A DNA stretch of 58,243 nt, taken from contig PKUH01000087.1 of the NCBI GenBank assembly GCA_002869615.1, positions 1 to 58,243 of the forward strand, written 5' to 3'. A program made the position numbers and the translations under genes. The notes below the pieces were generated by a model, which saw only the letters and a program-made list of their open reading frames with translations, was not told the origin of the DNA and made no database searches. The DNA is from Desulfuromonas sp. (GTDB lineage Bacteria; Desulfobacterota; Desulfuromonadia; Desulfuromonadales; UBA2294). Positions 4,126 through 42,410 of this stretch are shown here, one piece after another; position 1 is the stretch's first letter, and each line of letters starts with the position of its first letter.

Positions 4126-5958
4126 ATGGATCTTCAAACAACCACTTATATCATTGTCGGTCTTTCCTTCGCGCTCTACATCGGAATTGCGATCTGGGCT
4201 CGCGCAGGAAGCACCAAAGAATTTTATGTAGCCGGCGGCGGTGTCCACCCGGTTATCAACGGTATGGCAACCGGCGCTGACTGGATGTCGGCAGCGTCCT
4301 TTATCTCGATGGCTGGCCTCATCGCCAACATGGGCTACGGCGGCGCGCTCTTCCTCATGGGCTGGACCGGCGGCTACGTCCTTCTGGCAATGCTGCTTGC
4401 CCCGTACCTGCGGAAATTCGGCAAATTTACCGTTCCCCAGTTCTTCGGCACCCGCTATTACTCCAAGGGCGCCAGTACGGTTGCGGTTATGTGTCTGCTC
4501 GCCGCTTCGACGACCTACATCATCGGCCAGATGACCGGCGTCGGGGTTGCCTTCTCGCGCTTCCTCGGTGTTTCGAACACATCCGGTATCTTTATCGGCA
4601 TGGGTATCGTTTTCGCCTACGCCGTCTTCGGCGGCATGAAAGGCATCACCTACACCCAGGTTGCCCAGTACTGTGTTCTGATTCTCGCCTACACGGTTCC
4701 GGCAGTCTTTATCTCGCTGCAACTCACCGGCAACCCGCTGCCGCAGCTCGGCCTCGGTTCCGACATGGCCGGCAGCAACATGTACCTGCTCGAAAAGCTT
4801 GACCTGATCGTTACCGACCTCGGTTTCGGCAAGTACACGACCCAGATGCCGGGCAGCATGCTCAACATGTTTGTTTACACGGTTTCCCTGATGATCGGTA
4901 CGGCTGGTCTGCCGCACGTCATCATCCGCTTCTTCACCGTTCCGAAGGTTAAGGACGCACGTTCCTCGGCTGGCTGGGCACTGGTCTTCATCGCGATCCT
5001 CTACACCACGGCTCCTGCCGTTGCTGCAATGGCCCGCATGAACCTGCACACCACCGTTAACAAGGCCTTTGTCGGCGCCGAAATCGGCGATGTTTTCGCC
5101 CCTGAAAACAGCATCATGTACGATGAGCGTCCCGACTGGATGAAGCGTTGGGAAGTCACCGGTCTGCTCAAATGGAAAGACGCCAACGGTGATGGCCGTA
5201 TCCAGTACTTCAACCAAAAGTCCAAAAATGCCGAGTTTGTTGCCAAGGCCAAGAATGCTGGCTGGGTAGATTCAGAAGGCAACCTGGCCAGCGAACTGAC
5301 GGTTAACCGCGACATCATGGTTCTCGCCAACCCGGAAATCGCGCTGCTGCCGAACTGGGTTATCGCCCTGGTTGCTGCCGGTGGTCTCGCTGCTGCACTC
5401 TCGACCGCAGCCGGCCTGCTCCTGGCAATTTCCTCAGCGATCTCGCATGACCTTCTGAAAGAGAAGTGGATGCCTGACATGAGCGAAAAAGCTGAACTGA
5501 TGGCTGGTAAGATTGCCATGGCATGTGCCATTATCGTCGCCGGTTATCTTGGTCTTAACCCGCCGGGTTTCGCCGCCGGTACCGTTGCGATCGCCTTCGG
5601 TCTGGCCGCATCCTCGATCTTCCCGGCACTGATGATGGGCATCTTCAGCAAGACGATGAACAAGCAGGGCGCCATGGCCGGCATGCTCGCCGGTATCGGC
5701 ATCACCATGCTCTACGTCTTCGCTCACAAGGGCCTGTTCTTCATCAAGGGCACCGAGTTCCTCGGCCTCTTCGGCGGCAAAGCGAACTTCTTCTTCGGCA
5801 TCTCGCAGAACGCCTTTGGTGCAATCGGCGCGCTGATTAACTTCATAGTTGCCTTCGCAGTCAAGAACATGACTGAGCCGGTTCCGGCCGACATCGCAGC
5901 CATGGTCGAAGACGTTCGTATCCCGCGTGGATCAAAAGAAGTTGATGGTGCCCACTAA
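4126..5958 (+). CDS. Sodium:solute symporter large subunit, VC_2705 subfamily
   Basis: This 610-residue polytopic inner-membrane protein of the SSS family is related to ActP-type acetate permeases. Many hydrophobic segments are visible, with the SSS-typical early region GMATGADWMSAASFISMAG. It is longer than classical ActP because of a soluble insertion around residues 305-400. That insertion carries D352-A-N-G-D-G-R-I359, which looks like an EF-hand/dockerin calcium loop. The ribosome site is AAAGGAGG. It forms an operon with the small subunit and is closed by a strong terminator. Related loci carry the same pair next to a cNMP/CBS/DUF294 protein, as here, which suggests second-messenger or nucleotide control of uptake. 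Confidence 0.92.
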   Translation: MDLQTTTYIIVGLSFALYIGIAIWARAGSTKEFYVAGGGVHPVINGMATGADWMSAASFISMAGLIANMGYGGALFLMGWTGGYVLLAMLLAPYLRKFGKFTVPQFFGTRYYSKGASTVAVMCLLAASTTYIIGQMTGVGVAFSRFLGVSNTSGIFIGMGIVFAYAVFGGMKGITYTQVAQYCVLILAYTVPAVFISLQLTGNPLPQLGLGSDMAGSNMYLLEKLDLIVTDLGFGKYTTQMPGSMLNMFVYTVSLMIGTAGLPHVIIRFFTVPKVKDARSSAGWALVFIAILYTTAPAVAAMARMNLHTTVNKAFVGAEIGDVFAPENSIMYDERPDWMKRWEVTGLLKWKDANGDGRIQYFNQKSKNAEFVAKAKNAGWVDSEGNLASELTVNRDIMVLANPEIALLPNWVIALVAAGGLAAALSTAAGLLLAISSAISHDLLKEKWMPDMSEKAELMAGKIAMACAIIVAGYLGLNPPGFAAGTVAIAFGLAASSIFPALMMGIFSKTMNKQGAMAGMLAGIGITMLYVFAHKGLFFIKGTEFLGLFGGKANFFFGISQNAFGAIGALINFIVAFAVKNMTEPVPADIAAMVEDVRIPRGSKEVDGAH

Positions 5959-39033: not shown

Positions 39034-39072
39034 AATAAAGAAGGGCGATGTATTACATCGCCCTTCTTTATT
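39034..39072. terminator. Bidirectional terminator between ftsK and the cytochrome operon
   Basis: A perfect 19-bp inverted repeat with a single central base; the effective hairpin is GAAGGGCGATG/CATCGCCCTTC with T-rich flanks on both strands. It ends ftsK on the plus strand and the peptide/cytochrome operon on the minus strand, 20 nt after the peptide stop. Confidence 0.94.
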
Positions 39073-39092: not shown

Positions 39093-39149
39093 TTAGCAGG
39101 GATGGACGTTGCCGCTCCCTACTACTTTCGGTTTCATGTATTTCTTCAT
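39093..39149 (-). CDS. 18-residue peptide gene at the end of the cytochrome operon
   Basis: The ORF encodes MKKYMKPKVVGSGNVHPC and ends with TAA. It has the canonical ribosome site AAGGAG (39161-39156) with 6-nt spacing. It begins 34 nt after the multihaem cytochrome stop, on the same strand, and 20 nt before a strong terminator, so it is the last gene of the operon. The sequence fits the leader pattern YxxPx[LV]xxxGxV (Y4, P7, V9, G13, V15) known from lasso-type RiPP precursors, but only His-Pro-Cys follows. There is no signal peptide. No RiPP enzyme gene is in the window. It may be a minimal modified peptide, a small regulator or a structural peptide. Confidence 0.7.
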   Translation of the reverse strand: MKKYMKPKVVGSGNVHPC

Positions 39150-39183
39150 AACTTTCTCCTTCTTTCAAAATTTGTTATTTATT

Positions 39184-41463
39184 TTATTGTTGTGGCGCCA
39201 AAACATTCCAGCCATTGGCGGTCGTATCTTTCCGGTGACAGTTGTTCATGGCCTGCTTAGCCCAGGTATCAGTCGCCAAAGGTCCCAATGTTGTTGCACC
39301 ACCACCATCAGGGCCGCTGGCCGAAACACTCCAGTTGGAAATCGTGTAATCGAGGCAGTTCGTCACCAACAATGCCGGCAGACCTGACGCATGCGGCGTA
39401 TGACATTTGGAGCAGGAAAAATCATGCGCTCGACCACTACCGCTACCGTTGCTGCCAATCCCCGTCGCCGAATACCAAGTCGAGTAACCAGCCCCACGGA
39501 CGAGAGTACCAGCCGTTCCACCATAGTAGCCGGTGTTACGTGGTGGAGCAGTGCCGCTATTCCCCTTGTCGGGAGTATCCTGTTTGCCGTTTGAACCAAA
39601 AGGGAGAGTCTTGAAACGCTCATTGTTTCCATCCCACTTTTGATCTCCCCAACGGGAATCATCCACAACATTATCGGCACCCTGGCCAGCCATGAAAAAC
39701 CCCATGCTCAAATTAACAACACTGTTGATACCATCTCGATCACGTGCATCAAACAAATTAACCCCCGCACTGCCCGAACCACCGAGTACAGCATTTGAAT
39801 GACCATTGGTGCCAATCCAGAGGTTTTCAGCAGAGTAATAATCCATGGTATCTACATCGCTGCCATGGCAAAGGACACAGAGCCCTGCGGATGAAGCAAG
39901 GGACTCTCCGGATGTCGGGAAATTATTATTCTGGTCGATCTGGTAACCACCAAGCTGGTTGCCCCCGGAGGTATCGGTTCGGATACGCGGAACCGTGTCG
40001 GTACCATCAAAATGTGACCACTGGTTACCAGTCCAGCCGTCTCCACTTTGAGGCGGGCGTTCAAAGGTATCTGCCATGTAGGGGTTATGCATCCATGTGC
40101 CGCGGAGATAAGGAGCGGTATCTGGATCGTCTCCGGCAGCGATCACGCCACTGTGATCGGCCGTTCCGTGCACATCATGACAATAACTGCAGCGAATTCG
40201 GCTCACCGGTTCAAGTACCGGGCTACCAATTCCTGCCGGGTCGTTGTCACGCAAGGTTCCGGCCGGCCAGTTAATATTATGTTCTACCGAAGAGCTGACT
40301 CCATCTCCGATTAGATTACTGTCGATATCATTTGCCGTGTGAATCGACAAAGTTGGCCGGGGAGGAATGACGGTACTATCCAAGGTAAACGTTACAGCCG
40401 TCCAATCCTGACCTCCAGAAACGGTAAATCCGTGATCTATCAAAGCATCCCATTCAGACGGCCCTGCCCCATGGCAATCCCAGCATATTTCGGCTTCGCT
40501 TGTTGCACTAATCAGTGTCGCATTACCCCCAAGACCAATCCCGCCGGTTTTCTGATAATCGATACCGACCTTTGCATTGTTCGGAATGATAATATCACCA
40601 CTATGTCCCGTGTGACATTCTATACACTGAGCCGTCCATTGGAAATCAGTCAGGCCAACGATCGGGTCAGTACCGTCAACACGCAGATGTGTACCAATGG
40701 CAGGAATGGTTGCACCTGCCTTGTCCAACACTTTAGGTGCATCTGCACTTAGGCTCGAATTGACATCGTGACACTCGACGCAGTGTCGCTTTTTGAAGCC
40801 GTCGCTGTGCATATGACAGGTGGCACAGTTGTCTCCCCAGGCATGGCTCTGAAAATCACCGACACCAGAATCACCTCCGGTCGTCGGACCGGCATTATGA
40901 CAGATCTGGCAGGGACCATTGTTGGATGCACCCCGGCTGAAATCATTGTTGTTCTCGAAGACAACATCAACCAAGGCACCGAGCCCCCCCTGACCGGCCG
41001 GTCGTTCAACTCTGATCTGCGGAACTGGCAAATCAGGGCGAGGGGGTACGGTATCATTATAATCAAGCTCCATCCCTACCAGCTTGGTGTTATAGTTTCC
41101 TGCGCCATTAGCGTTTGGCCAAGGCAAGGGGGATGTCGGTTCTTCCGGATCACCATTGGTGTGAGGATTGTGACATTCGAGACAAGTGATATAACCCGGA
41201 TTTCCTGCGCCAACATTACCCGGATCATGTATCGACGCTTCAGTGGCGATACTCAAAGGACCATGACAACTGATGCAAGTCGCCTCCGAAGAAACATCAG
41301 TCAAAAGCCCACCTCCGAAAATACTTGGACCAGCATGCAATTGATGACAGGTGTCACAAGCATTATAATTATAATGGGCTGCGATTAAAGCTTCAGAGTT
41401 CTGTGGCACAAACAAACTGCCCAGAATCCCCACCAACAAGAAGAGGCTTTGAATATTCTTCAT
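39184..41463 (-). CDS. Exported multihaem c-type cytochrome (11 CxxCH, plus one CX38CH)
   Basis: The 759-residue protein has a signal peptide (about 1-25) and eleven CxxCH haem sites: CDTCH (36-40), CISCH, CLECH, CQICH, CATCH, CVECH, CIECH, CWDCH, CSYCH, CVLCH and CSKCH. Near the C-terminus C703 and C742-H743 form a widely spaced C-X38-C-H. Haem density is low, with long Gly/Asn/Asp-rich linkers typical of extracellular or outer-surface cytochromes of Geobacter relatives. It probably takes part in extracellular electron transfer. GGGGAGG precedes the ATG, which overlaps the lipoprotein stop by one base. No porin gene of a porin-cytochrome conduit is present. Confidence 0.94.
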   Translation of the reverse strand: MKNIQSLFLLVGILGSLFVPQNSEALIAAHYNYNACDTCHQLHAGPSIFGGGLLTDVSSEATCISCHGPLSIATEASIHDPGNVGAGNPGYITCLECHNPHTNGDPEEPTSPLPWPNANGAGNYNTKLVGMELDYNDTVPPRPDLPVPQIRVERPAGQGGLGALVDVVFENNNDFSRGASNNGPCQICHNAGPTTGGDSGVGDFQSHAWGDNCATCHMHSDGFKKRHCVECHDVNSSLSADAPKVLDKAGATIPAIGTHLRVDGTDPIVGLTDFQWTAQCIECHTGHSGDIIIPNNAKVGIDYQKTGGIGLGGNATLISATSEAEICWDCHGAGPSEWDALIDHGFTVSGGQDWTAVTFTLDSTVIPPRPTLSIHTANDIDSNLIGDGVSSSVEHNINWPAGTLRDNDPAGIGSPVLEPVSRIRCSYCHDVHGTADHSGVIAAGDDPDTAPYLRGTWMHNPYMADTFERPPQSGDGWTGNQWSHFDGTDTVPRIRTDTSGGNQLGGYQIDQNNNFPTSGESLASSAGLCVLCHGSDVDTMDYYSAENLWIGTNGHSNAVLGGSGSAGVNLFDARDRDGINSVVNLSMGFFMAGQGADNVVDDSRWGDQKWDGNNERFKTLPFGSNGKQDTPDKGNSGTAPPRNTGYYGGTAGTLVRGAGYSTWYSATGIGSNGSGSGRAHDFSCSKCHTPHASGLPALLVTNCLDYTISNWSVSASGPDGGGATTLGPLATDTWAKQAMNNCHRKDTTANGWNVLAPQQ

Positions 41464-42410
41464 TACGGCACCTCCCCTTCACCCGGATATACAACAACAC
41501 GACCATTTCGATTATCTGCCACATAAACGTCACGTGTCACCGGCTCAACATAGACATCTAGTGGATAAAAAAGTTCGCCGTCGGCCGCTCCGCGCACTCC
41601 GATTGTCTTGACGGAACTTTTCGTCAAAAGATCGTAAACCTGGATTTCCGATGCCCCTGCATCTGCAATAAAAAGAAATTTATTGCCCGAAGAGTTGAAT
41701 CCGATGCAAAGTCCTTGTGGTGTTGAAAAGGACTGGCTAGAACTCAGGCTGCCGCCCGAGACAACTGCAACAATTTCATCGATCAGAATACCGGACGAAT
41801 CGAAGATTCTAACCCTTGGAAGAATGCCGCCTCCAGGATCACCAAAATCGCTGACGTAAAGATTCCCTGTCTGTTGATCCACGGTCAGAGCTGTTGGTCG
41901 GGCAAGGTTAGCGCTTACAACAGTATTGATTTCATTGCCATCTACAGAATTGAAAGCTCTGATTGCAAGAGCCTTGGCATCAAGGACATAGACTGTACCG
42001 GATGTCTTATCAATGGAAAGATCATTAACATCAGAAAAAATTCCGGTTTGATCTTCGAGATAAAAAAGAAAACTTCCAGAACTATTATAAACCTCTACTG
42101 AGCGGGTTGAACGATTTCCGATAAAGACTTTTCCGGAATAAGACAACACACAAGTTGGTTGCCCGGCTATACTGAAACATTGAGTCGGCTCTAAACTTAG
42201 CTGATCGACAAAACAGACTCTACCGGTAGAATAATCGGAAACAATAATGGCAGAGTTACCAGCAGCAGACAAACGGGCCGGTGATGAGAGTGCCGATGGC
42301 GGAGAGGATTTGGTCGGCACCGGATTGCTGTTATCACAACCAACAACAAGCGCCAGCGAAATCAACACTCCGAACATGTTTTTTAGACAAAAAAACTCTT
42401 TCAGACGCAT
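41463..42410 (-). CDS. NHL-repeat beta-propeller lipoprotein
   Basis: The 315-residue lipoprotein has lipobox L-V-V-G-C25 and a Ser/Pro linker. About five or six NHL blades follow, for example 'NDLSIDKTSGTVYVLDAKALAIRAF' in pieces, 'TALTVDQQTGNLYVSDFG' and 'LDVYVEPVTRDVYVADNRNGRVVVY'. NHL proteins often sit beside multihaem cytochromes in metal-reducing deltaproteobacteria. It probably lies at the outer membrane and docks the cytochrome or its partners. It is first in the operon; GGGAG supports the start and a palindromic site lies upstream. Confidence 0.9.
   Translation of the reverse strand: MRLKEFFCLKNMFGVLISLALVVGCDNSNPVPTKSSPPSALSSPARLSAAGNSAIIVSDYSTGRVCFVDQLSLEPTQCFSIAGQPTCVLSYSGKVFIGNRSTRSVEVYNSSGSFLFYLEDQTGIFSDVNDLSIDKTSGTVYVLDAKALAIRAFNSVDGNEINTVVSANLARPTALTVDQQTGNLYVSDFGDPGGGILPRVRIFDSSGILIDEIVAVVSGGSLSSSQSFSTPQGLCIGFNSSGNKFLFIADAGASEIQVYDLLTKSSVKTIGVRGAADGELFYPLDVYVEPVTRDVYVADNRNGRVVVYPGEGEVP

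Follow-up and report, generated by a model that had tools for sequence, protein, structure and literature searches.

The peptide gene and its family

The window, which here means the whole stretch of 58,243 nucleotides analysed from Desulfuromonas sp. contig PKUH01000087.1, contains an operon on its reverse strand, in the order NHL-repeat protein, multihaem cytochrome with 11 CXXCH motifs, and 18-residue peptide (Table 1). A gap of 34 nt separates the stop codon of the cytochrome gene from the peptide ORF. The peptide consists of a leader-like part, MKKYMKPKVVG, and a core, SGNVHPC. An inverted repeat with arms of 19 nt each lies 3' of the peptide gene, and can act as a terminator both for it and for the converging ftsK-like gene, since it is located between the two. 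The ribosome-binding site and its spacing, the 34-nt gap, and the 19-nt repeat are all as described in the first-pass annotation.

Table 1. Features of the peptide operon in the window
Feature	Position	Strand	Remarks
Perfect inverted repeat, probable two-way terminator, between peptide gene and ftsK-like gene	39034..39072	.	arms 39034-39052 and 39054-39072
18-residue peptide gene, probable precursor	39093..39149	-	18 codons and TAA; reads MKKYMKPKVVGSGNVHPC
Ribosome-binding site AAGGAG	39156..39161	-	6 nt before the peptide ATG
759-aa secreted multihaem cytochrome, 11 CXXCH	39184..41463	-	directly upstream of the peptide gene
C-terminal cytochrome module	39190..39435	-	H.FSCSKCH.PHA..LP.L..TNCLD...NCHR...GWN
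NHL-repeat beta-propeller protein	41463..42410	-	first gene of the operon

The family was first sought with a degenerate pattern for KPxxxGxGxxHPC. Four further copies were found in the same genome, which makes five paralogues in total, and 18 loci in other Desulfuromonadales-type genomes were matched by the same pattern. All loci from this search have strong ribosome sites. One match in Comamonas (L013) was rejected as a chance match. The reversed control pattern had no matches in the genomes of the order. The five copies in one genome, the empty control and the conserved frame put the ORF beyond chance, and the 18-codon ORF is a genuine gene.

In total, 131 distinct copies encoding 77 distinct peptides were collected from Desulfuromonadia, and the frame is conserved among them. 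The family consensus is near M-K-K-Y-x-K-P-x-V-V-G-S-x-N-V-H-P-C. A conserved family overlooked by gene calling, as the first-pass annotation suspected, is thus present. Counted from the C-terminus, Pro -12 is invariant (131/131), and Tyr -15 (129/131), Lys -13 (128/131), Gly -8 (130/131) and Ser -7 (130/131) are nearly so. AAGGAG or AGGAGG is seen upstream of 99 copies, and some Shine-Dalgarno sequence upstream of 127. Across the 131 copies pN is 0.16 and pS is 0.74 (pN/pS about 0.22). Ser -7 is encoded by AGY in 84 copies and by TCN in 46. No single synonymous substitution joins these two codon sets, which indicates that the amino acid, not the nucleotide sequence, is kept. The invariance of His-Pro-Cys is partly by construction, as HPC formed part of the search pattern. 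A less biased look was obtained by seeking short ORFs behind the radical SAM gene of GeoRSP cassettes (see below) by ribosome site and length only. The short ORF in this gap is the family peptide in 14 of 15 cassettes.

The leader motif proposed at first, YxxPxVxxxG, stands in part. YxKPxV is leader-like and conserved, but G13 of the window peptide is variable (S 83, G 27, A 19, N 2 of 131), and it is G11 that is conserved (130/131). The suggestion that only HPC is left as a core is not supported, as conservation beyond the leader motif extends over the whole of S-x-[NSD]-V-H-P-C.

No pattern match in the order, with two mismatches allowed, has selenocysteine in place of the last Cys, and no NCBIfam model matched the peptide padded with X. 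Geothermobacter hydrogeniphilus HR-1 carries a copy (L020). Outside the order, the peptide reads MKK(Q/R)xYxKPxVVGSA[ND]VHPC. One copy (G076:C131:10717-10758) ends with NVHPR by a change of TGC to CGC and is possibly dead. At L167 (G125:C41), two tandem peptide genes at 5896 and 5999, 103 nt apart, are located behind a 30-haem cytochrome.

The GeoRSP cassette and the partner proteins

One of the paralogues in the same genome, MRKYQKPRVVGSSNVHPC (L032:8324-8380, contig G000:C108), lies inside a GeoRSP cassette. It is flanked by a radical SAM/SPASM gene and a SPASM-only gene, with a PqqD-like gene upstream. RRE (PqqD-like) and radical SAM genes, which had been proposed as something to look for elsewhere in this genome, are therefore present. 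The radical SAM/SPASM protein passes TIGR04303 (GeoRSP_rSAM) with 433.6 bits against a cut-off of 400, and contains CX3CX2C. The PqqD-like protein reaches 93.7 bits for TIGR04302 (cut-off 100), which is its best match over the full length, and exceeds the cut-off of PF05402. The SPASM-only protein scores 100.2 bits for TIGR04304, below the cut-off of 300, yet this is its best match and covers the full model. By this TIGR04304 score, the cassette is a diverged relative of GeoRSP. After GeoRSP, the closest models of the radical SAM protein are heme b synthase AhbD, mycofactocin maturase and NirJ; among solved structures, PqqE (6c8v) is the closest to it in sequence.

The cassette consists of genes for NosD-like beta-helix proteins, a phosphonate-type binding protein, a TPR protein, YedE, PqqD, the radical SAM protein, the peptide, the SPASM protein and a cysteine desulfurase, in this order, which is kept in most of the Desulfuromonadales-type cassettes examined. 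In Geobacterales-type cassettes, a peptide copy beside the radical SAM gene was not found; several genomes with such cassettes keep peptide copies behind cytochromes. With YedE, cysteine desulfurase, NosD-like and ResB-like genes as neighbours, the system may involve sulfur or selenium chemistry and the assembly of metal centres or cytochromes in the periplasm. YedE was rejected as a marker of the system, being found also in genomes without GeoRSP. At L138, L143, L148, L149, L175 and L211, ORFs that by eye look ResB-like, of the kind involved in cytochrome c biogenesis, are seen a few kb away from peptide copies; the Geobacterales-type GeoRSP region of L211 has a match to PF05140. The selD gene of the Desulfuromonas genome (L214, G000:C106:47319-48242) contains an in-frame TGA, probably a selenocysteine codon.

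The GeoRSP radical SAM gene is present in 51 of the 136 genomes of the order, and the peptide in all of these 51. Among the 85 genomes without the radical SAM gene, the peptide is found in six, all of them 70-91% complete, and is absent from 79. In one of these six (L270, G046:C72:5800-8700), the radical SAM gene is in two overlapping frames beside an intact peptide gene, because of either an assembly error or decay. Outside the order, the pattern search gave no match in 12 of 29 genomes with the radical SAM gene, for which divergence of the peptide is assumed, and no peptide copy was found close to that gene.

Outside the cassettes, 77 copies have a same-strand gene upstream, which encodes a multihaem cytochrome in 54 cases, an FG-GAP/ASPIC protein in 12 and an HD-domain protein in five. 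The association with cytochromes proposed in the first-pass annotation is supported. The gap between a cytochrome or FG-GAP/ASPIC gene and the peptide gene is 11-296 nt, and mostly 20-90 nt behind cytochromes. Some copies adjoin HD-domain or rhodanese genes.

A C-terminal module with CSKCH, TNCLD, NCHR and GWN is common to 27 of the peptide-adjoining cytochromes. Within the order, its profile is limited to genomes with GeoRSP or the peptide: of the 45 genomes (among 136) that have it, 43 are positive for the radical SAM gene and two are incomplete and peptide-positive. Paired-CXXCH cytochromes are seen in 115 of the 136 genomes, so the restriction of the module is specific and is not explained by cytochrome content alone. 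Within these 115 genomes, the association of the module with GeoRSP has a Fisher P-value of 6e-21, which ignores phylogeny. Module cytochromes do not, as a strict rule, have an adjoining peptide gene: of 40 further ones, about 39 lack a peptide gene immediately downstream. The link to the peptide must consequently act in trans. No reliable structure was predicted for the cytochrome C-terminus (mean pLDDT 34). The terminal xxNCH motif, in the window and in similar cytochromes, resembles half a CXXCH; NCH could be a one-cysteine haem site, or the NCH and TNC cysteines could form a disulfide, and both are possible.

The C-terminal profile of the FG-GAP proteins is found in 39 genomes: 36 with the radical SAM gene, and G129, G130 and G131. 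G129, which is 79% complete, has the peptide only, while G130 and G131 have neither. All 37 profile-bearing genomes with GeoRSP or the peptide contain the sequence GFCAQ. In G130 and G131 (L255 and L256; G130:C96 and G131:C7), it is replaced by GFSAQ, a change of Cys to Ser. Their proteins share 81-84% identity with the orthologue in the congener G132 (L257, G132:C150) and retain the other three mature cysteines. Both genomes belong to one genus, and the change probably occurred only once, but it points at one cysteine of the FG-GAP protein.

Interpretation as a probable precursor peptide

The peptide gene is a short translated gene with modifying enzymes beside it or co-occurring with it, as is characteristic of RiPP precursors. 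It is likely that the peptide is a RiPP-type precursor of GeoRSP, with a leader read by the PqqD-like protein and a core modified by the radical SAM enzyme, and that the product is for secreted redox proteins. The precursor status is well supported; the chemistry and the role are inferred.

The occurrence of the cytochrome module and of the FG-GAP cysteine follows that of GeoRSP, as would also be seen if the radical SAM enzyme acted mainly on the C-termini of these proteins and the peptide were a helper, such as a leader in trans, rather than a substrate. This is improbable, as the leader motif of the peptide is followed by a conserved core of its own, and the partners are secreted, whereas radical SAM enzymes work in the cytoplasm.

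There is also little reason to expect that the peptide stays unmodified and is a small cytochrome subunit, either structural or binding haem or metal, with its His and Cys as direct ligands and the link to GeoRSP incidental. Such a subunit would suit the adjoining multihaem cytochromes, mostly at gaps of 20-90 nt, and the conserved H and C, but would leave the cassette copy, the 51/51 co-occurrence and the leader-like YxKPxVxG half unexplained. Direct binding of metal or haem, as raised in the first-pass annotation, may nevertheless occur.

RiPP-type genes and several paralogues per genome might equally suit an antimicrobial or a pheromone. Such a role in competition or signalling is just as doubtful as the subunit, since the core hardly varies between genera and orders, the copies reside in cytochrome operons, and no obvious immunity or peptide-export genes are seen in the cassettes examined. 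The lasso-type peptide considered in the first-pass annotation is not supported, as the window peptide contains no Asp/Glu to act as acceptor 7-9 residues into the core, and no lasso protease or cyclase genes are seen in the cassettes examined.

A leader peptide or attenuator regulating neighbouring genes, a role that was likewise raised at first and that a short ORF beside a hairpin could suggest, is very improbable, because the peptide gene normally comes last, with a terminator and no regulated gene behind it, and its amino-acid sequence is conserved across different neighbours.

For the GeoRSP precursor, the following scheme can be proposed. By analogy, a YxxP-type leader would be bound by a PqqD-like RRE and the core modified by a radical SAM/SPASM protein. 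The N-terminal half, K-Y-x-K-P-x-V-x-G, would act as the leader that the PqqD-like protein recognises and binds. The conserved end, S-x-[NSD]-V-H-P-C, would be the core modified by the GeoRSP radical SAM/SPASM enzyme and its SPASM-only partner, as the cassette and the co-occurrence suggest. Copies at the end of cytochrome and FG-GAP/ASPIC operons would provide the peptide at the same time as the cytochromes and FG-GAP/ASPIC proteins. To these secreted redox proteins, the mature product might contribute a small redox or metal-binding group derived from the peptide, or it might form an adduct at a cysteine close to their C-terminus. That the product engages a cysteine near the C-terminus of its partner is a tentative proposal. 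It can further be speculated, with some reserve, that the product is a cofactor or adduct made from the peptide and dedicated to extracellular electron transfer. GeoRSP would convert the S-x-N-V-H-P-C tail into a redox or metal-binding group, possibly with extra sulfur or selenium, and this group would be attached to, or dock on, a cysteine at the C-terminus of multihaem cytochromes and FG-GAP proteins of the outer surface. The extra sulfur or selenium is considered because the cassette encodes a YedE transporter and a cysteine desulfurase.

If this is true, extracellular electron transfer uses a ribosomally made, radical SAM-modified peptide, and the way in which such cytochromes would be expressed, purified and interpreted is altered. 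The candidate dependents include large secreted cytochromes of the kind used in metal and electrode respiration. The idea could be put to the test in culture, for example with Geothermobacter hydrogeniphilus HR-1.

Comparison with known systems

GeoRSP is already named in NCBIfam (TIGR04302 for PqqD, TIGR04303 for radical SAM/SPASM, and TIGR04304 for SPASM). The cassette described here has relatives of all three, with a peptide gene inside. No precursor model for GeoRSP was found in NCBIfam, and most precursor copies are elsewhere, beside cytochromes. In the open literature, no paper on the GeoRSP system, its precursor or a cytochrome link was found; an earlier mention in subscription journals or in the texts of NCBIfam entries is possible. 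As far as found, the precursor and the cytochrome link appear undescribed. GeoRSP, a named but apparently orphan radical SAM system so far, thus gains a precise candidate substrate and a set of candidate dependent proteins.

Geobacter has also given its name to the geopeptide maturase family (TIGR04280), whose members are radical SAM peptide maturases. This family was rejected here, as the best score in the Desulfuromonas genome is 32 bits against a cut-off of 400.

The PQQ system (PqqA, PqqD and PqqE) also combines a PqqD-like RRE protein with a SPASM radical SAM protein, and its precursor PqqA is similar in length to the present peptide. Unlike PqqA, the present peptide has no Glu-Tyr pair, and the cassette has a SPASM-only partner, YedE and desulfurase genes.

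In the mycofactocin system, a short peptide with a conserved end is accompanied by a maturase and by dependent redox proteins that vanish with it (PMC3023750). The conserved C-terminal motif, the radical SAM/SPASM protein with a small RRE-type protein, the sporadic distribution and the dependent redox proteins are features that MftA, MftB and MftC share with the system described here. The radical SAM protein of the cassette scores 191 bits with the mycofactocin maturase model and does not reach its cut-off of 265. The mycofactocin precursor ends with Val-Tyr, while the present peptide ends with VHPC. Different from mycofactocin, several precursor copies are present per genome, and no glycosyltransferase is seen in the cassette. 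In place of the nicotinoproteins of mycofactocin, the partners here are secreted multihaem cytochromes and FG-GAP proteins.
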